Shown one piece after another: positions 31,082 through 55,910 of a DNA stretch of 64,000 nt. The stretch's first letter is position 1, and every line of letters starts with the position of its first letter. The notes beneath the pieces were generated by a model. It was not told the DNA's origin and ran no database searches. It saw nothing but the letters and a program-made list of their open reading frames with translations. Location of the stretch: the NCBI RefSeq assembly GCF_000186345.1, contig NC_014962.1, forward strand, positions 4,306,450 through 4,370,449, in the 5' to 3' direction. A program made the position numbers and the translations under genes. Origin of the DNA: Isosphaera pallida ATCC 43644 (GTDB lineage: Bacteria; Planctomycetota; Planctomycetia; Isosphaerales; Isosphaeraceae).

Positions 31082-32959
31082 CTAGCGACGCGACGCGGTG
31101 GGATCAAGCCGTCCGGTGGCTGGCGGCCCGTCGGACACGGGCGACGCCGTTGGGTTGGCGGAGGCGGATGCCGCGGGGGGCGCAGCGGTGGGGTTGGGAT
31201 TCTCCGAGACCATCCGGCCCATCATCGCTTCTTGGAACCCTTTGAGATCGGTCCAGAGGGTGCCCGGACCAGCGTAGAACACGTTCAAGCTGATTTGGTC
31301 GGGCAGGTTCTCGGCGAAGAGATACCGTCCGTAGGCTTGCGAGCCCCCTAGCGCCTCGACCAACAGCTGGAACTTCTCGGCTTCGGCGATGTTGGCCAGT
31401 TCGGACTTCTTTGCGGTGGCCTCGCCCAGAAGTTTGGTCACTTGAGCTTCGATCAGGGCGGTTTGGAGTTCGATCGAGGCTTTGAGTTGCTCGGTGGTTG
31501 CCTCGATCTCGCGGGCCTTCTTCTGACCGGTGGCTTTGAGTTCGGCCACGAGACGGTTCGTTTCGGCCCGGGTGCGGCCCTCCTCCAAGGTGACCTGGGC
31601 AATGGCGCGTTGAAGATCGGCGCGGGCCTTGGCGGTAAGTTGCTCCTGGTCGCGAGTCTTCTTGTTCTCGTTGGCGATCGTGGCCCGTTGAATCGGTTGC
31701 CGCACCACGTTGGGCACGTAGATGTGCCGCGTCAAGGCAAACAGCAACGTCAGGTTCTTCTCGGCCAGCACCCGTTCGAGCTCCTCCGCCGCGTCGGTCT
31801 GGAATGCCTCGCGACTGTCCCCCACCAGCAAATCCACCGCGCCCCGCTTGGTCCCCTGGTTGCGGCAGATCGACTCGACTTGTGGCTTGACCACCTTGGC
31901 CTCGACATCCTTGAGGCTACCGAAGTTCCTCACGACTTCGGTGGCCTGGTCGGGCAGCACTCCCCAAATCGTGGTGAAGTCCATATAAATGTTGAACCCG
32001 TCCGACGAGCGGAACGAAATCCCGGTGTCCTTCTTGATGACCGGATCGGGCGGAACCTCGAAGACTGCTGGATCAACCGGCGTGTTGGGCGCGCCAGCGA
32101 CATTGCCCTTTTGAAATTCACGCGGGCTCAACCGCACCTCGGTGGCGCGCCGGCGGGCGTTGGGGTCGAATGCGTCGTTTTCCTGCTCGACTTCATATGT
32201 GATCGAAAGCTCGTTGTAGCCGATACTCACGATGTCCACCCGCTTTTCCAGAGGGTTGAGGAAGTACAGGCCGGGCTGAAGCACCTGTTTTTGCACCCCT
32301 TTGCCCTGGTCGGAGCGTGGGTCCGCCGCCTTGTTGGTGACGACGCCAACATAACCGGCGCGGATCAGGTCGGTCTGATTGGGGGGCAGGTTGATTCCGG
32401 CGACGACGCCGAGGTTCTCGGGTCTAACCTCAAAGGCGTAATGGGTATTGATCCGGTAACGCCCGGGGGTCAGCACCCGACGGCGAACCCCTTTGTATTC
32501 CTCGGAGTCGGCCAGGATCGCCCCCTCGGGCAGCGGCTTGCCCAACTTGGAGGTGACCACGCCGATCTCGCCTGGCTTGATGATTGTGTCGGGCACCAAC
32601 ACCGTTTCGTACTCCAGAGGGGAGTAGAAATGACGGCCCGGACCCGGCATGACCCGCAGCACTCCAATGGCCTTGGGCTGTCCCGATTCGTCCAAGTCCA
32701 CCAGATCCCCCTCGACCGGCTTGAGACCCGGACGCAAAAACGGTGGGAATGGCCCTTTGTATCGCAGCATCAGACTATGATTGGGCGGAACTTCGATGCG
32801 GCAAATCATCCACTGCCAGACGCCAACATACAGGAACAGCAACACGGCAAGCGTGACGCCGCCGGCGATCAAGGCCGCCCGACGCACCCGTTGGCGACGG
32901 CTGCCGCCGAGGTTGCCGTCGTAGTCGGGACGGTCTTCCAGGGGGATTGAGGAACTCAT
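31082..32959 (-). CDS. SPFH (band 7/prohibitin-like) membrane protein, second of a coupled pair
   Basis: A 625-residue protein. An N-terminal membrane helix (about 28-50, ALIAGGVTLAVLLFLYVGVW) is followed by three beta modules of similar wording (GEIGVVTSKLGKPLPEG, RRVLTPGRYRINTHYAF; GYVGVVTNKAADPRSDQGKG, QKQVLQPGLYFLNPLEKR), then a band-7 region (SFRSSDGFNIYMDFTTIW) and a long charged coiled coil (about 440-545). The tail is Pro/Ala/Ser-rich. SPFH proteins form large oligomeric cages or rings that organise membrane microdomains. Its ATG overlaps the upstream gene's stop (ATGA), which implies translational coupling and probably a hetero-oligomer with that paralogue (inference). Confidence 0.88.
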   Translation of the reverse strand: MSSSIPLEDRPDYDGNLGGSRRQRVRRAALIAGGVTLAVLLFLYVGVWQWMICRIEVPPNHSLMLRYKGPFPPFLRPGLKPVEGDLVDLDESGQPKAIGVLRVMPGPGRHFYSPLEYETVLVPDTIIKPGEIGVVTSKLGKPLPEGAILADSEEYKGVRRRVLTPGRYRINTHYAFEVRPENLGVVAGINLPPNQTDLIRAGYVGVVTNKAADPRSDQGKGVQKQVLQPGLYFLNPLEKRVDIVSIGYNELSITYEVEQENDAFDPNARRRATEVRLSPREFQKGNVAGAPNTPVDPAVFEVPPDPVIKKDTGISFRSSDGFNIYMDFTTIWGVLPDQATEVVRNFGSLKDVEAKVVKPQVESICRNQGTKRGAVDLLVGDSREAFQTDAAEELERVLAEKNLTLLFALTRHIYVPNVVRQPIQRATIANENKKTRDQEQLTAKARADLQRAIAQVTLEEGRTRAETNRLVAELKATGQKKAREIEATTEQLKASIELQTALIEAQVTKLLGEATAKKSELANIAEAEKFQLLVEALGGSQAYGRYLFAENLPDQISLNVFYAGPGTLWTDLKGFQEAMMGRMVSENPNPTAAPPAASASANPTASPVSDGPPATGRLDPTASRR

Positions 32960-34719
32960 TGATCACCTCCAGCGGGCTTGGCATTGGGAATCGAGGCGGC
33001 GTTGGGGTTGGGTGTGGGAGATGGGTTGGCCGGCGGGTTGGCCAGCGGCGGGTTGTCGGAGGCAGACGGTGTTTCAGCAGGAGAAACCGGCGCGGGCTGA
33101 TTGGGCGGAGAGGTAGATTCGGCCTCGGAAAGAGCCGCAGTGGAAGCAGGAAGCGCGACCGACCCGAGCGAGGTCGGGGCGGCGTTGGTGAACTGGGCGA
33201 ACAACTCCATGATCGGCCCTTCGGTGTTGGTCAGGATCGTCTTGAACGCCGGAGCGAGCTTGGAGGCCAGCACGCTGCGGGCGTAGCCATCGCCGTCGCC
33301 GCCGAAGGCCCGGACCTTGGTACGGACGCCGGCGACCTCTGCGTTGTTGCGGAACCGGGTTACCGCCGCGGCCGCTTCGGCTTCGGCGATCAGTTTGGCC
33401 GCCTGGTCACGGGCCGCCTCCAGCTTGATCTTGGCCACTTCGAGCTGCTGGTTGGCCTCGGTCAGAGCCACCGCCTGATCCTGCTCGGCCTTGGTCGTCA
33501 ACTCGACAATCTCCTGCTCGGCCTCGACCAGCTTGCGGCTTTGCTCTCCCTTGAGTTCCTCGACCTTCAATTGGGCTTCGGACTCTTGTTGCAAACGCTC
33601 CTGCTGATATTGGGCCAACCGCTGTTTGGCCACCTCGCGCTGCTGGATCGGCTCGGCGATGTCCAACGGCGGAATAATGGTCGAGACCGTGACCGCCCGG
33701 ACTTCGATCCCCTGACGCAGGCAGTTGGTTTTGAGCGAACGCTCCAAGTCCCTCACGAATTGCTCACGCTCGATGCCGCTGATGAACGCGCCGCCGGTCA
33801 GCTTGGAGCCGTTGATTCGGCAAATCGACCGGCTCTCGGGCATGATGATCTTCTTGACTAGTTCCTCGGCGATCTCGTCCTGGTTGTAATCCTCGTTGTA
33901 GAGGACAAAGATTTCGGCGGCCTTGTCCTCCAAAACGCGGAACTCGATGGTACCGTCGATCTCGACAGGGAAACCGTCGGCGGAGAGGAAGTCCATCGGG
34001 TCGCCTTCGGAGAGGTTGTAGCGCTGGCTTCGGCAGTCCACCAAACTGACGCGGTATTCATACGGGTTGAGGTAGTGGGTGCCGGGAGGCAACGTCTCTT
34101 GTTGAACGCCGCGCTCGCCCTTAGCGACGAGGACGACGTTGGCATCTTTAGGCAGAGGACCGGCGAGGTTGGTGACCACGCCTCGGAAACCGGCCGGGAT
34201 CATGACCGGGTCGAACTGCTGGATCTCTTCGAGATAGCGGTTGTAGGTGTACAACCCCGGCTCCAAGACACCCCGTTGGATTCCCTTTTGGCCGGGTTCG
34301 GCCAGCACTTGGTTTTCCGTGGAGTTCAACTCCTCGCCGACCAGCCTGATCCGCACCCCGATTTTGCCTTTGGGAATGTCCGCCTTGGGATAGATTTCCC
34401 AGTCCCAGAACAAGGGGTTGTAGAAATAGCGTCCCTCGGTCAGCACCCGAGGTTGAACCCCCTTGTAGAGTGGTCCGTTGGGATCGTCGGGGGCGATCTC
34501 CATGTCTGGTTCCAGATCCAAACCGCGTTTGGAGATGAGAACCGCCTGGGAGTTAGTGGGCACTTCCAGCAGACACAGGTTGTAGCCCACGATTGCAAGA
34601 ACCAGTGCGCTCCCCAAAAGAACCGCCGCCACTGTAACCAGGTTGACGAAGTGTCGCCCCGGTGAGCCTCTCCAGTTGAACCCCAACCCGCCGCGGCGGG
34701 TTCTAAAACCGCTGGACAT
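32956..34719 (-). CDS. SPFH (band 7/prohibitin-like) membrane protein, first of a coupled pair
   Basis: A 587-residue paralogue of the next gene. A membrane helix (about 26-50, LVTVAAVLLGSALVLAIVGY) precedes repeated beta modules (KGKIGVRIRLVGEELNSTEN, GIQRGVLEPGLYTYNRYLEE; GFRGVVTNLAGPLPKDANVV, QQETLPPGTHYLNPYEYR), an SPFH core (FLSADGFPVEIDGTIEFRVL) and an Ala/Glu/Gln-rich coiled coil (about 370-460), ending in a Pro/Ser/Asn-rich tail. The C-terminal order resembles flotillin-type proteins. ATG 34719 has gggagg six bases upstream; the frame is open to 34773. The pair probably builds a membrane-associated assembly; no NfeD-type partner, common next to prokaryotic SPFH genes, is present. Confidence 0.88.
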   Translation of the reverse strand: MSSGFRTRRGGLGFNWRGSPGRHFVNLVTVAAVLLGSALVLAIVGYNLCLLEVPTNSQAVLISKRGLDLEPDMEIAPDDPNGPLYKGVQPRVLTEGRYFYNPLFWDWEIYPKADIPKGKIGVRIRLVGEELNSTENQVLAEPGQKGIQRGVLEPGLYTYNRYLEEIQQFDPVMIPAGFRGVVTNLAGPLPKDANVVLVAKGERGVQQETLPPGTHYLNPYEYRVSLVDCRSQRYNLSEGDPMDFLSADGFPVEIDGTIEFRVLEDKAAEIFVLYNEDYNQDEIAEELVKKIIMPESRSICRINGSKLTGGAFISGIEREQFVRDLERSLKTNCLRQGIEVRAVTVSTIIPPLDIAEPIQQREVAKQRLAQYQQERLQQESEAQLKVEELKGEQSRKLVEAEQEIVELTTKAEQDQAVALTEANQQLEVAKIKLEAARDQAAKLIAEAEAAAAVTRFRNNAEVAGVRTKVRAFGGDGDGYARSVLASKLAPAFKTILTNTEGPIMELFAQFTNAAPTSLGSVALPASTAALSEAESTSPPNQPAPVSPAETPSASDNPPLANPPANPSPTPNPNAASIPNAKPAGGDQ

Positions 34720-35098
34720 TGCAAACCTCCCCGCAACCTGTCCACCAGGGTGAGTTGGTGGTTGCGGAAACAAGGGACCATCGGTGAAAGTGACATTGTC
34801 GGATCGTCATCCAAGGCGACCCGGTCTCCGAACGCACCAGCCCGCGCGAACCCCGGCCGGGACAGCCCAACCGGCACCCAACGCTACCCCACGCCTCGTC
34901 TGGCGCAGCTTGGCGAAAGTGGGCTTCATTGCACCCTCGACAGAGTGATCGCCGCAAGGAGATTCGCCGAGGAGCACCCAAATTTGCCTTGATTCGCTAC
35001 AATCATCCGTTTTTCCCCAACGCGACCGTTGAGAGCCTCTAGTTCGTTTCGTTTTGTTTCACAACAGCCGGGAATGAACTGAACCCGGAGACCCCGCC
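34720..35098. other. Divergent intergenic region upstream of the SPFH pair and the ROK kinase
   Basis: A 379-base gap. It contains a T-rich and AT-richer stretch around 34985-35065 (for example gtttcgttttgtttcac) that probably carries the ROK promoter, and a small hairpin ccggg...cccgg (35070-35090) just before the ROK start. No gene seen. Confidence 0.5.
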
Positions 35099-44088: not shown

Positions 44089-44187
44089 TATGATCACTCT
44101 CGACTTCGTCACAAAATCAGACGATTTTGCACTCATTCAACTCGCCTTGTTCGGCAAGGTCAACGGCAACCATCAAGGGAGATGAAG

Positions 44188-44682
44188 ATGGTGAACGAAA
44201 TCGCGGACGCGGTCAAACACGCGGCCACCACCGGCGACCTGGCGGCGCTTCGGCAACTCCTCGACACTCACGGCGAGGCGGTCGTTCGCGGCGACGACAA
44301 CCCGGGGGAGTTGACCACCCTCCATTGGGCGGCGGCGACGGGCAACGTCGAGACCATGCGGTTCCTCCTGGACCCGCCCATCGGGTCCGACCCCTGCGCT
44401 GCCCGAGGCAACAACTTCACGCCGTTGCACGCGGCCGCCATGCATGGCCACACTGAGGTCTGCGAAACGCTGCTCGCAGCCGGGGCCGACGTCAACGCCC
44501 AGACCAACCCCCAGGGATACGCTCCGCTGCATAGCGCGGCGTTTGCCGGATACGTCGAGACCATTCGGGTCCTGCTGGATTACGGAGCCAACCGCGAATT
44601 GCTCACCTACCGCGGCGAGCGGCCCGTTGACACCGCCCGTCGTACCGGCCAAGCTGAGGCCGTGCGGATGCTGGAGGTGTAA
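44188..44682 (+). CDS. Ankyrin-repeat protein
   Basis: A 164-residue cytoplasmic protein made of about four ankyrin repeats: GDLAALRQLLDTHGEAVVR, LTTLHWAAATGNVETMRFLL, FTPLHAAAMHGHTEVCETLL and YAPLHSAAFAGYVETIRVLL, with a partial fifth. The consensus TPLHxAAxxGHxExxxxLLxxGA is close throughout, so the fold is certain and a protein-binding role is expected; the partner is unknown. I chose ATG 44188, six bases after aagggag; ATG 44182 is almost on top of that site. Low-complexity expansion is absent. Confidence 0.9.
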   Translation: MVNEIADAVKHAATTGDLAALRQLLDTHGEAVVRGDDNPGELTTLHWAAATGNVETMRFLLDPPIGSDPCAARGNNFTPLHAAAMHGHTEVCETLLAAGADVNAQTNPQGYAPLHSAAFAGYVETIRVLLDYGANRELLTYRGERPVDTARRTGQAEAVRMLEV

Positions 44683-49282: not shown

Positions 49283-51400
49283 ATGGAGACTCCGCCCCAG
49301 CCCCAGGGCACCAACCCGACCCCTTCGACTTCCACCCTTGATCCCCAAGTCGAGGGCGGCCCCGCGCCGGGCCGGGTGGATGCGACTCGTTTCCACCCCT
49401 CGCCCAACGGAGAACCGCATCGAGACCCGGCCCAAGACCTCTCCCCCGCCAGCCCCCCCCCAACCTCTGGTCCTGCCTCGGTGACCGCCGCTGGTTCAGA
49501 AGAAGCCGCGACGGCCTGCCAACGGCTCATGGACCTGCTTGAGACCGCCCGTAAACTCGAAGCCCTGGAACAATCACGGTTCGACGACAAGGTGAGGCTC
49601 CCCATTACCGAGTTCGTCGCGGCCCAATTTCGGATGCGGATTCAACCCGCCCTTGCCCCGGATTGGCCCCAAAACGACCCGGTTCACCTGGCACTTTGCG
49701 GCGGCACCAACTCGGGCAAATCAACCATTCTCAACGTATTGATCGGCCATCCGCTGGCCTCGATGAGTCCCACCGCCCGGCATAGCCAGCACCCCGAAGC
49801 CTACCAAGCCGCCGGGTGGAGTCTGGATTGGTGCGACCGCTACCCCGGACGGTTCGAGACGGCCGGTTATGTGCGTTACCGCAACCAGCATCCCCCGCGT
49901 CAGACCGACGCCGACCTGGAACACCACGGCTACCGTCCCGCCTACGCCGTTCACGATGTCGCGCCCCCCGATCCCAACGAGGCCACGCGGCTGGGTCCCA
50001 ACCTTTTCGACTCCCCCCACGGCGTGGTCTGCTGGGACGCCCCGGATATCTCTACCGAACAGGCCCGGTACTACATGAGCGCGGTGGTGGACGCCCTAGC
50101 GCTGGCCGACCTCATCCTCTTCGCTGTCACTAAGGAGAGCTACGCCGACGACCGGGGCCTGTCGTTTTTGAAGATGCTCACCCACGCTGGGCTCCCAGTG
50201 CTCGCCGTCGCCAACAAGCTGCCCACAGCCCGCGACGAACGCGAGGAAATCCTGCCGGACATCCGAGCCAAACTGGAAGCCCACCGCCGCGAACCACCCG
50301 GCGCGCGGCGATTGGACTGGTTTCTGGTCATGCCAACCGCCTCGGGCGACGACGTTGGGTCCCGATTCCAGCGACTGTGCGACGAGCCAGCGGTTCATCA
50401 CCTCAAACGGGTCGCCCGCGACCTCGCCGCCGAAGGGACCCGGCTCAAGAAGGAAAACCTCGACCGGGTGTTCCACTACGTTTCCACCGCGATTCATCCC
50501 GCCCTGGAACCGCTGCGCAGTCAGGTCCGCGAGGTGGACCGCTGGCGCAGCGACCTAGAAAGCCTCACCCAAACCCATCTGCTCAGACGCTATCGGGAGG
50601 AACATCTCAACGGCGAACGTTACGAGGCGTTCGATCGAACCATGATCCGGGTGTTGGAATTGATCCAAGTGCCGTTCGTGGGCCGTTGGCTGTCCAAAAT
50701 TTCCGGCCTGTTACGCAAGCCGGCCGATCTCTTGCTCCATCAAATCAAAACCCGCTCCTGGACCACGCGGACTCCTAGCGGTGACCTGAGCCGGGAACCC
50801 GAACACGTCGTGCTGGAGCGTTTGCTGGAAATCTGGTTCAACGAGGTCCGCGGCCTAGCCCAGGCCAAGGCCGACGACCCCCAAAACGGCTGTCGGATCG
50901 GTTGGAACCAGGTGGCGCGCGGTCTCGACTCCGCCGAGTTTTTAGAACGACTCCGAAACAGCTTTCCCATCGCCTACCAAGCCTACCGCGAGGACCTGAT
51001 CCGCGAGGAAGAAACCCGCGCGACCCGAATTCACGAGGCGATCGCCTCCAAACCGAACTTGTTGCGCTCGCTCAAGTACGGTCAGCTCGCCACCCAAATT
51101 TCAGCTGTGGCAATGGTGATCGTCTCGGGCGGATTCAACGTCTCCGACCTGGTGGTGGCCCCCCTGGTGGCCACGCTGCTCAACGTCTTGGTCGAAGGAG
51201 GCGTGGGAGCCTTCGTCGAAGCCGAGAAAGCCAAACTGCGCGATTGGCAAGCCGCCCGCATCGAAGCGATCGCGCGGGAGGGTCTGGTGAACCCCGCGCT
51301 CAGCTTGTTTCCCGCAGCGGTCGAATCGGATCGACTCGACACCGTCGCCGACGACTTGGCCTTGATCGGCCAGGCGGTCAGACGAATCATCACCACGTAA
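49283..51400 (+). CDS. Dynamin-superfamily-like GTPase, first of a pair
   Basis: A 705-residue protein. The first 60 residues are Pro-rich. Walker A is G140-G-T-N-S-G-K146-S (CGGTNSGKSTILNVL). The switch region contains SPTARHSQHP; the G3-like motif is VVCWDAPDIS (DxPD in place of DxxG) and the G4-like motif is VANKLPTARDE (NKLP in place of NKxD). The C-terminal half is helical with a hydrophobic patch (about 600-640, ATQISAVAMVIVSGGFNVSD then LVVAPLVATLLNVLVEG) that could contact membrane. The next gene is a second GTPase 148 bases on; bacterial dynamin-like proteins are often encoded in such pairs. Role is likely membrane remodelling or envelope stress (inference). Confidence 0.8.
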   Translation: METPPQPQGTNPTPSTSTLDPQVEGGPAPGRVDATRFHPSPNGEPHRDPAQDLSPASPPPTSGPASVTAAGSEEAATACQRLMDLLETARKLEALEQSRFDDKVRLPITEFVAAQFRMRIQPALAPDWPQNDPVHLALCGGTNSGKSTILNVLIGHPLASMSPTARHSQHPEAYQAAGWSLDWCDRYPGRFETAGYVRYRNQHPPRQTDADLEHHGYRPAYAVHDVAPPDPNEATRLGPNLFDSPHGVVCWDAPDISTEQARYYMSAVVDALALADLILFAVTKESYADDRGLSFLKMLTHAGLPVLAVANKLPTARDEREEILPDIRAKLEAHRREPPGARRLDWFLVMPTASGDDVGSRFQRLCDEPAVHHLKRVARDLAAEGTRLKKENLDRVFHYVSTAIHPALEPLRSQVREVDRWRSDLESLTQTHLLRRYREEHLNGERYEAFDRTMIRVLELIQVPFVGRWLSKISGLLRKPADLLLHQIKTRSWTTRTPSGDLSREPEHVVLERLLEIWFNEVRGLAQAKADDPQNGCRIGWNQVARGLDSAEFLERLRNSFPIAYQAYREDLIREEETRATRIHEAIASKPNLLRSLKYGQLATQISAVAMVIVSGGFNVSDLVVAPLVATLLNVLVEGGVGAFVEAEKAKLRDWQAARIEAIAREGLVNPALSLFPAAVESDRLDTVADDLALIGQAVRRIITT

Positions 51401-51548
51401 GTGATCTTCAGTCCAAGGGAGTCCCAGGGAGAAATCCGCCCCGACTATCCCACCGCCTCCCCCCCACCGATCCCGACGACCGGCGGGAAAACGGACGCCG
51501 CGTGGTCGCCTCGGACCCACGGACTCTCCCACCGGAGCCGCGCCCGCC

Positions 51549-53594
51549 GTGAACCTGACGACGCCCCCGACTCCCCACTCGACTTCGCCCGCGCCCACGA
51601 TCGTTCGCGCCCCGCTCGACCGCGACGCCGAGGTCGCCCCACGCAAGCGAGCTATCGAGGCAGCCCTCGCCCGCCTGCGCGGGACGATCGAACACCCCCG
51701 TTGTCTGAGGATCGACCCCGAGTCGCGTCGGGCGTTGGTCTTAGCCCTGTCGCGGGTCGAAGCCTTGTCGCTAGAAAGCTCGCGGCCCTGCTTGACCATC
51801 GCTCTGGTCGGTTGCACTGGAGCTGGCAAAAGCACCCTCATCAACGCCCTGGCCCGCGCCCGCATCGCCCGTCCCGGCACGATCCGACCCACCACCAGCG
51901 CCATTCGGGTCTATCACCATCGCCTGGTGCCTCACGGCGGCCTGGCCGAGGAGGTCGTCGGACTCATCCCCGCCCAGTTCGTCCCCCACGACCGCCCCGA
52001 ACTGGAAACCAAGACCCTGGTGGACACCCCCGACCTGGACAGCGTCAGCGTCGAACACCGCCAAACCACCAAAGCCGTTCTCAAAGCCGCGCAATTGGTC
52101 GTCTATGTCTTTAGCCATGAAAAATACATGGAGGAACGAGTCTGGTCGGTGTTGCGGCAGGAAATCGTCTTCAGCCATTCCATCGCCGTGCTGAACAAGG
52201 CCGACGAAGTGTCGGCGACCGACCTGGATCTGATCACCCACGACCTCAAGCGGCGGTTCGCCGACCTCGGGCTGGCCGAGATCCCGATCTTCCGGGTTTG
52301 CGCCCGCCGGCACGCCCCCGCCGACCCCGGCGACCCGCCCCCGCTCAACGTCATCCCCCAGGTCGATGAGATGGAGGCGCTGCGCGACTTTTTGGAACAA
52401 CGCCTGGACCGCGCCGAGGCGCTGCGGTTGATTCGAGAGCAACGCGCCAACGTTCTCAAAGACTTACGCCAACTCATCAATGAGACAATTCCCGCAGCTC
52501 GGGTCGAGCGTTTGGAACGATTGATGGCGGAAACCCCTGAACGAGTCCGTCAGGTGTCTGAGCGTTTGATCGGCCAGGTCGGCCCGGCGCTTGACGCGGC
52601 CGAGGAGGAATTCCGCCCCCTGGCCGTGCTTCGGTTGCACGAGCGCTTTTGGGGACCCTTTCGCGGTTGGTTAGCCGTGGCCGACTTTTTGACCATTGGC
52701 CTCTCGGGATTGGTCCGTCAACTGCTGGGACGACCCGCGCGGGGACGACCCGAAGCCATTGTTCAAATCTTCGAACGTCAAGGTCAAGCTCTGGTGGGCG
52801 ACGCGCTGCGCGACGAGGCGTTGCGGTTTCAAACCCGACTCCGCGAGGCAGAACTGCCCTTGGAGCACTGGCGAACCCTTACCGGCGGCACGACCGCCGA
52901 GATGGTGCTGAGCGAACTGGGCGACGCCCTCACCCGACGCATCGACGAGCCGAGCGACCCCACCCGCTGGTCCACCCGCGTGGTGATCTTCCTGGCCAGC
53001 CTGATCGGAGCGATGCTGCCGTTCGCCCTGGCGGTCTTCGTGCTGTGGCAACTGACTCGGGACTTTCTGGCAGGCAATTATGGCGGTTGGGACTTGGTTG
53101 TTCATCTTACGCTCATGGTTTTGGTTTTCTTTGTGGTCCTTCAGATGGTCGTCTCGCTGTTCATGGCCGGACCCTCCCGCAAATTGGGCCGGGGGTTGGG
53201 TCGTTTGGCCATTCACGACGCTCTTGGTTTGCACATCAATCGCTGGACTCACACCTACCGCGACGACCTGCTCGCCGATCGCCGCGATCTCCTCGAACCC
53301 CTCGACGAGTTGGATCGACTCAACGAACTCGACCTCGAGCCGATGAGTCCGCCTGCGTTGCCACCCGCCGAGCTTCCACCCCCGCCAGCTGTTGGCGCGA
53401 CCCCGACGCCGCCGACTCTCGACTCCACGAACATCCCTTCCCCCACCGCCCCTGTCGAATTGGCTGCCATCTCGGCCTCGACCGCCCCCCCCACCCCCAC
53501 CCTCACCCCGACCGCCAACCCCGCCCCAACCGGGTCTCGCTTCAGCGGCTTCCTCTCGCGCCGGCCGGAAACCGAAACCGGGGCTGGATCCTAA
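51549..53594 (+). CDS. Dynamin-superfamily-like membrane GTPase, second of a pair
   Basis: A 681-residue protein starting from GTG. Walker A is G88-C-T-G-A-G-K94-S (VGCTGAGKSTLINAL), switch I PTTSAIRVYHH, G3 LVDTPDLDSVS and G4 VLNKADEVS, so the motifs are more canonical than in its neighbour. Helical regions follow, with a hydrophobic pair of membrane segments (about 478-502 and 516-539: LASLIGAMLPFALAVFVLW; HLTLMVLVFFVVLQMVVSLF), then a Pro-rich tail (about 590-670). Two membrane segments near the end of the helical stalk resemble the membrane-inserting paddle of bacterial dynamin-like proteins. It probably acts with the first GTPase. Long ORFs on other frames over this gene are shadows. Confidence 0.85.
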   Translation: MNLTTPPTPHSTSPAPTIVRAPLDRDAEVAPRKRAIEAALARLRGTIEHPRCLRIDPESRRALVLALSRVEALSLESSRPCLTIALVGCTGAGKSTLINALARARIARPGTIRPTTSAIRVYHHRLVPHGGLAEEVVGLIPAQFVPHDRPELETKTLVDTPDLDSVSVEHRQTTKAVLKAAQLVVYVFSHEKYMEERVWSVLRQEIVFSHSIAVLNKADEVSATDLDLITHDLKRRFADLGLAEIPIFRVCARRHAPADPGDPPPLNVIPQVDEMEALRDFLEQRLDRAEALRLIREQRANVLKDLRQLINETIPAARVERLERLMAETPERVRQVSERLIGQVGPALDAAEEEFRPLAVLRLHERFWGPFRGWLAVADFLTIGLSGLVRQLLGRPARGRPEAIVQIFERQGQALVGDALRDEALRFQTRLREAELPLEHWRTLTGGTTAEMVLSELGDALTRRIDEPSDPTRWSTRVVIFLASLIGAMLPFALAVFVLWQLTRDFLAGNYGGWDLVVHLTLMVLVFFVVLQMVVSLFMAGPSRKLGRGLGRLAIHDALGLHINRWTHTYRDDLLADRRDLLEPLDELDRLNELDLEPMSPPALPPAELPPPPAVGATPTPPTLDSTNIPSPTAPVELAAISASTAPPTPTLTPTANPAPTGSRFSGFLSRRPETETGAGS

Positions 53595-53931
53595 TCGCCA
53601 CCCTCCCACTGCATTCCCCTTCCTCCCAACCGATCAACAGCCGCCGCGGCGACGCGCTGACTCCGTCAAATGTCCACGTCACGACCAATTCCCCTCCCCC
53701 TCCACGCGCTCGACTCCCAAACCACCTCCCTCTGGTTGAACGGCGGACCGAACACCCGGCCCCGGTGATTCTCAAGGCCGTCCGGCGTCGGGTTTACCCC
53801 ACTACCCAATGCATGGTAGGTCCGATAAGTTTTGAAGTGGCCGTCGCGGGACGCCAAACGCTTCACGCGCGTTGTGTCCTGTCCTACGACGCAATACCTT
53901 GGCACATCAACAAAACCAACGGATTCTTTCG
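53595..53931 (+). other. Intergenic region between the GTPase pair and a hypothetical gene
   Basis: A 337-base gap. A long open frame (52649-54322, plus) crosses it but is out of frame with both neighbours and has no family signature. No RNA or repeat found. Confidence 0.5.
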
Positions 53932-55476
53932 ATGTCGCAGTCTCGCAAGAGATGCTCGAACCATAACGTATTGGATCGCCGCGCGCTGCTCGCGTTCCTG
54001 GTGCTATTCGTCCTGCCAACCGTGTCGTCAGCGGACGTGGTTCGGTCGGGATGGGATGCCCACCGCGGAGCGATTGATCCCTTGCCTGGCTCGGCCGGTC
54101 CATCCTCGCCACGGTTTGCCGGGGCACAATCCGGCGAGTTCCGACCATCAACCGACGCGGTTTGGGATGACAGCGCGGTTCTTAGCCGCCCCCGCGCCTT
54201 CGCCAACGCCAGCGACCCTCCCTTCTCTCTGGACTCCACCACCCGATGGTTCGAGTTCGAGTTTCTCGGCGTGGATCGACTCCGCTTTCGTCCCGACCCA
54301 CCTAGTTCGATTCTATGTTTGACATATCGCCATTGGTTCGAAGATCAACCCTTCCTCAAGGCAACCACCCCAAGCGAGATAATCGGAATCGCAGACCTGG
54401 CGATGCTTCTCTCCAGAACACCAACGTGGATTCCCTATCTTGCAACTCCCACCATGACGACCGCTCGACCGATCCGCTCCGCGTCGGTTCCCTCATCGAA
54501 CTCGACACCAACAAGCGACCTCTCGAACCAGTCCTCCGCGGCGTTTGGAACCCATTCTCGGCGAGCCGAGGCAATGCTGACGCAATCCCTCCTGCTCCCA
54601 CCGATTCAAGCTCAGCTGGCTCGGAATTGGTACGATGTGGGTCGAGTTTCAGGACATTCCGATGCCTTAGAGTTTCTTCGGGTTGATGGTCCGATCGAAC
54701 ATTCGGCGCGGGTGAGTCCCAAGAACGGAGCATTCGACTCGCTTGCGACCACCTTGTCGTTTTGGGCGATTCTAGCGGGAAGCAGCGGGGCGGCGGGGTT
54801 GGCGTTGATGCGTCCCCTTCGCAAACAATCGACTGGAAACCGCCTCCGGAGTCGTCGCCGGGCCTGGACCCGAGCCAACCCGCCCGCGGGACCACCAACC
54901 AGCCGGATTGAACCGGTGGAAAGGCGGGGGTTCCTGAACAGTTCACATCCCATCCAGGATCGGGGATTACTCATTTGGTCCACCTACCCCATGCCTCGGG
55001 CTATGCCACGTCCGTCGGTCAGCGCTCCGGGGTTAAACGGGCGGGCCGCGGCAAATTTGCCTGCCTCTCAACCAACCGATCCTCAACGGCCGGCTCCCAC
55101 ACCAACTCTGCACGCGGCGGACATCCCGCTCCCCCCTAACACCCAAGCCCAACCCCGTTCCAACGACCACGAGATCATGGCGGCCCCCCTCACAAGCCGT
55201 CTGATTCGAGAGGTCGCGTCGCAACGGACTCAATTGCTGGTCCAGCAGCTTCTCCAGGTCGACCAGACCGCTTCTTGCTGCGGTCTCCACCCGTCCGGCC
55301 GGCACAAGCAAGTCGAGTGGGTTTTGACCGAACAGGGACACGAATTCCTCAGAGACCTCCTCATCCGCCTTCTCCAAACTCATCCTCAATCCAACCCAGT
55401 TCCTCCAGAAGAGTTCCACGTGAATCCGTCGCCCTTACCCACGACTTCGCACTCCTTGCCGGTCGGGGGTTGCTGA
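53932..55476 (+). CDS. Hypothetical exported or membrane protein
   Basis: A 514-residue protein of unknown function. The N-terminus has a Twin-Arg-free hydrophobic segment (ALLAFLVLFVLPTVSSADV), likely a signal peptide, and a second hydrophobic stretch near residue 280 (SLATTLSFWAILAGSSGAAG) that may be a membrane anchor. The rest is Pro/Ser/Arg-rich with low predicted order, and near the C-terminus a helical portion (RLIREVASQRTQLLVQQLLQ). The start was set at ATG 53932; upstream the frame continues to 53872 without merit. Composition is typical of lineage-specific planctomycete proteins. The gene may not be real throughout; the SRP RNA follows downstream. Confidence 0.55.
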   Translation: MSQSRKRCSNHNVLDRRALLAFLVLFVLPTVSSADVVRSGWDAHRGAIDPLPGSAGPSSPRFAGAQSGEFRPSTDAVWDDSAVLSRPRAFANASDPPFSLDSTTRWFEFEFLGVDRLRFRPDPPSSILCLTYRHWFEDQPFLKATTPSEIIGIADLAMLLSRTPTWIPYLATPTMTTARPIRSASVPSSNSTPTSDLSNQSSAAFGTHSRRAEAMLTQSLLLPPIQAQLARNWYDVGRVSGHSDALEFLRVDGPIEHSARVSPKNGAFDSLATTLSFWAILAGSSGAAGLALMRPLRKQSTGNRLRSRRRAWTRANPPAGPPTSRIEPVERRGFLNSSHPIQDRGLLIWSTYPMPRAMPRPSVSAPGLNGRAAANLPASQPTDPQRPAPTPTLHAADIPLPPNTQAQPRSNDHEIMAAPLTSRLIREVASQRTQLLVQQLLQVDQTASCCGLHPSGRHKQVEWVLTEQGHEFLRDLLIRLLQTHPQSNPVPPEEFHVNPSPLPTTSHSLPVGGC

Positions 55477-55672
55477 AACAGCGCGTCGCATGTCGCGCGT
55501 CGCTTGCCGAGCCTTCCCTCTAGATTTTCCCGCGAAGGCGGCTATGATAAGGCTGTTCAACCATACCGATCAGTTTCGCGGTTCCCGACTCGTCGGTTAC
55601 GAGCATGAGCTTATCGCGGAGGGTGATTCAGGGTTTGGAGTAGCGATATGGGTCTCCCCAGGACCAACGCAC

Positions 55673-55777
55673 GAACCGGGGGGGGCCCAGGCAATGGGGG
55701 TTTGTGAACCTGGTCAGGGCGGGAACGCAGCAGCCATAAGCAACACCTTCATGTGCCTGGGAGTTCCTCCCCGGTTC
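55673..55777 (+). ncRNA. ffs: Signal recognition particle RNA (bacterial small type)
   Basis: Not in a protein-coding frame. The SRP domain IV signature appears as tgaacctggtcagggcggga followed by acgcagcagccataag (55703-55740; compare the usual GGUCAG...GGAA...AGCAGCC). The flanks fold into a long helix: gaaccgggg (55673-55681) with ccccggttc (55769-55777), and cccaggca (55686-55693) with tgcctggg (55754-55761), both perfect. This is the scaffold bound by Ffh for co-translational membrane targeting. It lies directly upstream of dnaX, as in many bacteria. Exact ends are uncertain by about 10-20 bases. Confidence 0.9.
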
Positions 55778-55910
55778 CTGCCTTGGCCCTCATTGGGTCT
55801 TCGCCGCAACCTCCCGCGAACCCAGTCCAAAAGCGTTTCTGGCAACCCGACCCAAGCATTCCACGGTTTTGGTCCCCCCTCGTTCTTCTCTGGACGCGAA
55901 GGAGCGCGAC

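Follow-up and report, generated by a model that had tools for sequence, protein, structure and literature searches.

The window analysed here, a 64,000-nucleotide stretch of Isosphaera pallida ATCC 43644 (contig NC_014962.1, positions 4,306,450 to 4,370,449 of the forward strand), contains a tandem of two genes, P1 and P2, that encode predicted dynamin-like GTPases. The pair appears to belong to the DynA/DynB family known from Streptomyces, and its products probably constitute a membrane-anchored heterotypic dynamin-like machine. The genome carrying the window comprises 5,529,304 bp in two contigs. Both genes, and all the features of them given below, lie on the + strand. P1, the partner in the DynA position (49283..51400), encodes 705 amino acids, and P2, the partner in the DynB position (51549..53594), starts with GTG and encodes 681. 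The third-position GC content is 0.76 in each of them, as expected of coding sequence, and the two adjacent large GTPase open reading frames (ORFs) proposed in the original prediction were found exactly where it had placed them.

Relatives were collected by a search of genome contigs with a P2 profile, which confirmed 266 of them; the best 80 loci were kept, and the phyla named below are therefore a sample. From these loci, 52 sequences of the first type (resembling P1; alignment A3) and 51 of the second type (resembling P2; alignment A4) were chosen by hand, those of the window included. The Pfam model Dynamin_N matched P2 above its cut-off (5.2e-10), together with MMR_HSR1, while P1 matched MMR_HSR1 (2.5e-6) and, below the cut-off, Dynamin_N (0.0049). 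At a threshold of 1e-3, Dynamin_N was matched by 46 of the 52 first-type and 50 of the 51 second-type members. Similarity to Singulisphaera acidiphila was far above chance for both proteins, with 35% identity across 627 amino acids for P1 and 43% in the best segment, residues 33-585, for P2.

AlphaFold2, run with the two alignments, yielded models with a predicted local distance difference test (pLDDT) score of 82.3 and a predicted template modelling (pTM) score of 0.79 for P1, and of 81.7 and 0.74, respectively, for P2. The top Foldseek rows for P1 were members of the dynamin superfamily, the best being BDLP (2j69; 4.3e-8), and those for P2 were, in this order, BDLP (1.1e-11), Cj-DLP (9.5e-10), IniA, SynDLP and the mitofusins. 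The fold was read from domain-level alignments with VIA-align, in which families unlisted by VIA are not counted as excluded. P1 aligned with Fzo1 (9kfd) with a Z score of 21.0 and a root mean square deviation (rmsd) of 5.5 over 334 residues (model range 67-704), and P2 with mitofusin-1 (Mfn1, 5yew) with a Z score of 20.9 and an rmsd of 4.7 over 315 residues (model range 28-598); P2 also aligned with EHD2 (Z score, 19.4). Since these ranges span the first to the last helix, the neck formed by N- and C-terminal helices is included. In addition, the second-type profile matched BDLP1 at 1.6e-7, its best stretch lying after G3. According to the models, both proteins are thus dynamin-like, and the similarity reaches beyond the G domain into the neck and trunk helices. 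The dynamin-like assignment made in the original prediction was borne out by these single-protein models, in which a G domain, neck and trunk were predicted. That P1 and P2 are instead ordinary GTPases of the Era/Der kind, with unrelated helical tails and side by side by chance, is very improbable. Many Era/Der matches were indeed obtained at the P-loop region, but they were mostly short stretches around the P-loop, whereas mitofusin, Fzo1 and EHD2 align over some 280 to 330 residues with neck helices, and the tandem is conserved across phyla.

Both proteins appear to carry the membrane paddle or transmembrane region that characterizes bacterial dynamin-like proteins. The two membrane segments foreseen in P2 were recovered as hydrophobic stretches at residues 478-496 (52980..53036) and 522-540 (53112..53168), with Kyte-Doolittle values of 2.56 and 2.74, respectively, the second corresponding to a helix at residues 514-547 of the model. 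At least two such segments were present in the C-terminal half of 47 of the 51 second-type members, as counted by eye. P1 has a weaker hydrophobic helical hairpin at residues 602-641 (51086..51205; Kyte-Doolittle values, 1.56 and 1.98), modelled as two helices, which is a candidate membrane paddle. For its part, the Pro/Thr-rich C-terminal tail of P2 (53349..53591) is predicted to be disordered, with a pLDDT below 50 at residues 617-681.

The GTPase motifs were compared across both types. The G1 motif (P-loop) is GGTNSGKS in P1 (residues 140-147, 49700..49723), with G140, G145, K146 and S147 present in 52/52 sequences, and GCTGAGKS in P2 (residues 88-95, 51810..51833), with G88, T90, G91, G93, K94 and S95 present in 51/51. 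The G2 motif of P2, RPTT (residues 113-116, 51885..51896), has R113 and P114 in 51/51. While dynamins otherwise carry D-x-P-G in G3, D-x-P-D was invariant in the aligned proteins of both types (52/52 and 51/51), appearing as DAPDIST in P1 (residues 252-258, 50036..50056; family consensus, DAPDIDS) and as DTPDLDS in P2 (residues 159-165, 52023..52043), where the D, P, D, D and S columns were all invariant. The D and the S that follow D-x-P-D were each present in 49 of the 52 first-type sequences, P1 being one of the three exceptions; loss of this D-S was also seen in Singulisphaera (DAPDFSTE) and in a Gemmataceae genome (DCPDMTTW). G4 is NKAD in P2 (residues 216-219, 52194..52205), N216 and D219 being invariant, so that all 51 second-type proteins read N-x-x-D. 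In P1 it is the degenerate NKLP (residues 311-314, 50213..50224), with Pro at the Asp position. First-type proteins begin G4 with N or D (50/52), followed by K or R; where Asp would stand, Pro is found most often (30/52), and Asp itself does not figure in the top seven. Thus, the description of P1 in the original prediction (DAPD in G3, NKLP in G4) was accurate, whereas that of P2 as near-canonical was so only in part, since its G3 is also D-x-P-D. Nor did an unequal decay of the motifs hold up as a special feature of this pair: because D-x-P-D is common to both partners and the G4 Asp is missing across most of the first type, what looked like decay would mostly be part of the build of the family, to which P1 adds a loss of D-S specific to its lineage.

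The two types were mostly found together, as a unit. At least two GTPase ORFs were present in 68 of the 80 loci, typically with the first type directly upstream of the second; fewer than two were recognized by the motif script in the other 12, some of which are truncated at contig ends. The tandem was found in Planctomycetota, Actinomycetota, Gammaproteobacteria, Desulfobacteraceae, Fermentibacterota and Armatimonadota. In the window the genes are separated by a 148-bp spacer (51401..51548), whereas elsewhere they mostly overlap (45 of 69 spacings, 27 of them of the four-base kind, with starts assigned heuristically). For a tree, 64 G domains were taken from 32 of the loci with aligned sequences; it separated a first-type from a second-type clade with a Shimodaira-Hasegawa-like approximate likelihood ratio test support of 96, and each clade held Planctomycetota, Actinomycetota, Pseudomonadota, Thermodesulfobacteriota, Armatimonadota and Fermentibacterota. 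Two clades that each contain all six sampled phyla point to a single ancient duplication, the two products of which were since passed on together, by descent or by transfer. The distance matrices of the partners were correlated with an r of 0.97 across 49 loci, a value inflated by common ancestry. In both clades, a planctomycete locus, L096, is placed inside the gammaproteobacterial pairs, a position that suggests joint transfer of the two genes. The earlier proposal that the GTPases come as a pair was therefore upheld by both the locus counts and the tree. Six actinobacterial loci, mostly from Cellulomonas (L089, L090, L128, L138, L139 and L147), carry extra family genes no more than a few kb away from the first tandem, and L139 has a whole second tandem. 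A conserved third partner gene was also sought, with opposite-frame shadows of the pair set aside, and was rejected: the sole recurrent non-pair family was found in eight planctomycete loci at varying positions, and the two members tested were protein kinases.

The assignment to DynA/DynB was made through Streptomyces tandems other than that of S. venezuelae. Dynamin_N was matched best, in each of four Streptomyces genomes, by the first ORF of the same tandem, and the second ORF was matched as well; the remaining matches, in frames elsewhere, were judged by their length and the shortness of the stretch matched to be Era/HflX-like proteins or other P-loop proteins. Since none of the four genomes showed another convincing dynamin-like pair, this tandem very probably encodes DynA and DynB. 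The Streptomyces tandems fall within both clades of the tree, a comparison that covered species other than S. venezuelae.

Other dynamin systems resemble the pair in part. With Nostoc BDLP1 and mitofusin/Fzo1 it would share the G domain, the neck bundle of N- and C-terminal helices and the trunk, and these proteins have a membrane-inserting tip; they differ in that they are not known to form an obligate two-type tandem and have a canonical D-x-P-G in G3. Campylobacter Cj-DLP1/Cj-DLP2 are likewise a heterotypic gene pair and include the second-best structural match of P2, but their crystal pair is described in PMC6104087 as a cytosolic 2:2 tetramer, whereas P2 has a predicted transmembrane hairpin. 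The passages of PMC8748795 on Streptomyces describe DynB as bound to the membrane via two transmembrane segments and as a partner of DynA, both of them stabilizing Z-rings. The two-type tandem and the two transmembrane segments of the second member are thus shared with the window pair; in contrast, the G domains are far diverged, P1 has lost the D-S after D-x-P-D, and Streptomyces has FtsZ, for which the window genome gave no match at 1e-10.

The distribution of the pair was examined in two sets of genomes. In a sample of 199 Planctomycetota genomes, at a threshold of 1e-12, the second-type profile matched 68 (11 of them from the window's class) and the first-type profile 45, the two profiles cross-matching; a search with the single P1 sequence detected only 6 of the 199. 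The window's class was represented by 148 genomes, of which 95 gave second-type and 99 first-type matches; no match was obtained in 20 or more genomes from the family to which the window belongs. Among the single-contig class genomes, all 25 with a second-type gene also had a first-type gene. The original prediction had named unlinked genes in relatives as an outcome that would refute a working pair, and the result was mixed: the genes are adjacent on one strand in 19 of the 25 (read by eye), whereas the other six retain both genes but not side by side, five of them with 0.4 to 2.8 Mb in between and one with about 10 kb and the genes on opposite strands. Pairing was also classified in 47 genomes of the phylum sample, weak second-type-only rows (mainly f26, f45 and similar) being left out: 26 had the pair adjacent, 13 had both types non-adjacent (many in fragmented assemblies) and 8 had one type. 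In the borderline genome G133, one of the 13 and with two neighbouring genes, the second was scored as P2 by 150.3 versus 142.7 bits. From the linkage counts and the lack of the pair in about one-third of the class, the pair is usually linked, is kept complete even when unlinked, and is dispensable to many lineages.

This distribution bears on the role suggested in the original prediction, in which the pair would shape membranes in planctomycetes, forming or upholding their inner-membrane invaginations. The dynamin-like fold and the membrane hairpin would suit such a role, and the pair is commoner in the window's class than phylum-wide. However, the family is widespread in actinobacteria that have no such membranes, and about one-third of the class genomes do without it. 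As a further test, 274 gammaproteobacteria were searched for PF02461, the methane-monooxygenase marker of membrane-stacked methanotrophs. The second-type gene was found in 20 genomes and the enzyme in 9, with only 3 carrying both, one of them the genome on which the sample was centred; 17 of the 20 second-type carriers thus lack the enzyme, and 6 of the 9 enzyme carriers lack the second type. A general link with endomembranes was accordingly rejected. Given the actinobacterial spread, the gaps in the class and the scant overlap with the marker, a specific endomembrane role is not supported; we regard it as improbable and as the weakest of the processes considered, behind membrane maintenance or division and defence.

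Defence, in turn, is unlikely, if somewhat less so. Here the genes would be accessory and, in the manner of LeoA/LeoBC (Eleos), would serve membrane surveillance or act against phages, responding to membrane damage caused by phage or stress. P2 matches LeoA (7.2e-13) and LeoBC (2.9e-9), and P1 matches LeoA (5.4e-8); like the Leo genes, the pair is a dynamin-like gene set, its presence in the class is patchy, and the position of L096 in both tree halves indicates that it probably moved as a unit. Nevertheless, the Leo matches are partial, and the first Streptomyces ORF has none at an E value of 0.1. Defence context was rejected, since none of the ten neighbouring window proteins matched a defence model at 1e-10; the neighbourhood contains dnaX, rpoN, L19 and trmD.

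Other features of the neighbourhood were recorded. Between the pair and dnaX lie about 2.2 kb (53595-55868) in which the listed ORFs are mostly flat in codon-position GC; one on the + strand, of 534 amino acids, has no Pfam or NCBIfam match. A short ankyrin-repeat protein is encoded at 44182-44682 (+), and in locus L041 the pair likewise has an ankyrin protein next to it. Two neighbouring genes on the - strand (31082-34773), some 15 kb away from the window pair, encode large SPFH/Band 7 (flotillin/stomatin-like) proteins of 625 and 605 amino acids. In a comparison with the Singulisphaera locus L069, no match was found among the other window proteins tested.

The lack of FtsZ sets the window genome apart from Streptomyces. 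No FtsZ match above the cut-off was obtained in the 199 phylum genomes, in a search that detected 13 of 14 controls. Eight genomes (G010, G041, G080, G097, G098, G114, G145 and G157) gave weaker FtsZ-family matches of up to 162 bits, possibly from divergent FtsZ/tubulin-like proteins or from contamination. Among eleven hosts of the pair, FtsZ was present in 7/7 non-planctomycetes and in 0/4 planctomycetes. PMC10632474 and PMC4164004 state that FtsZ was lost in all planctomycetes and that their mode of division is unsolved; according to the former, Planctopirus can do without several of the textbook division genes, and its FtsK is essential. The word "dynamin" was not found in the main text of PMC10632474, and the literature searched with dynamin and planctomycete terms yielded no study of dynamins in planctomycete division. 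The absence of FtsZ bars the FtsZ-divisome role of DynA/DynB in this genome, but not membership in the family. One specific possibility is that a module of the divisome persisted here after FtsZ was lost, a DynA/DynB-type heterodimer that, freed from the Z-ring, would act as a membrane-remodelling machine to constrict or seal the bud neck in budding planctomycetes. We consider this improbable. Since the pair is patchy, being present in about two-thirds of the class, it is unlikely to be an essential replacement for FtsZ, and it cannot be the sole answer of the phylum.

Taking these data together, we favour a membrane-anchored machine of two dynamin-like partners. P2, the DynB-like member, is probably an active GTPase, to judge from its motifs, with the two-helix hairpin at the tip of the trunk presumably inserted in the cytoplasmic membrane. 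P1, the DynA-like member, would have the same G-domain, neck and trunk build with a weaker hydrophobic hairpin and, because its G4 lacks the guanine-selecting Asp, most likely plays a regulatory or structural part in the pair. The two proteins may co-assemble, and nucleotide-driven contacts between their G domains would then remodel, tether or stabilize the membrane. Several observations weigh against this interpretation: no bacterial dynamin was among the 60 best PDB sequence matches of the first-type profile; the Foldseek TM-scores were low (0.2-0.3); whole-chain superposition on BDLP and Cj-DLP was poor (rmsd, >25 for the two and >30 for full-length BDLP), a misfit that hinge differences would cause; P2 partly resembles the defence dynamins LeoA/LeoBC; the genes lie apart in six single-contig class genomes, albeit with both still present; and the DynA/DynB identity is drawn indirectly, through Streptomyces species other than the one whose proteins define the family.

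By analogy with DynA/DynB, the likeliest roles of the pair in planctomycetes, which lack FtsZ, would be membrane maintenance or repair, or service as a surviving part of a division or budding apparatus. The invariant D-x-P-D that replaces the switch-II glycine in both partners represents a testable change to dynamin chemistry, and a pair apparently of the Streptomyces divisome family, kept in budding bacteria without FtsZ, offers a concrete candidate for division.

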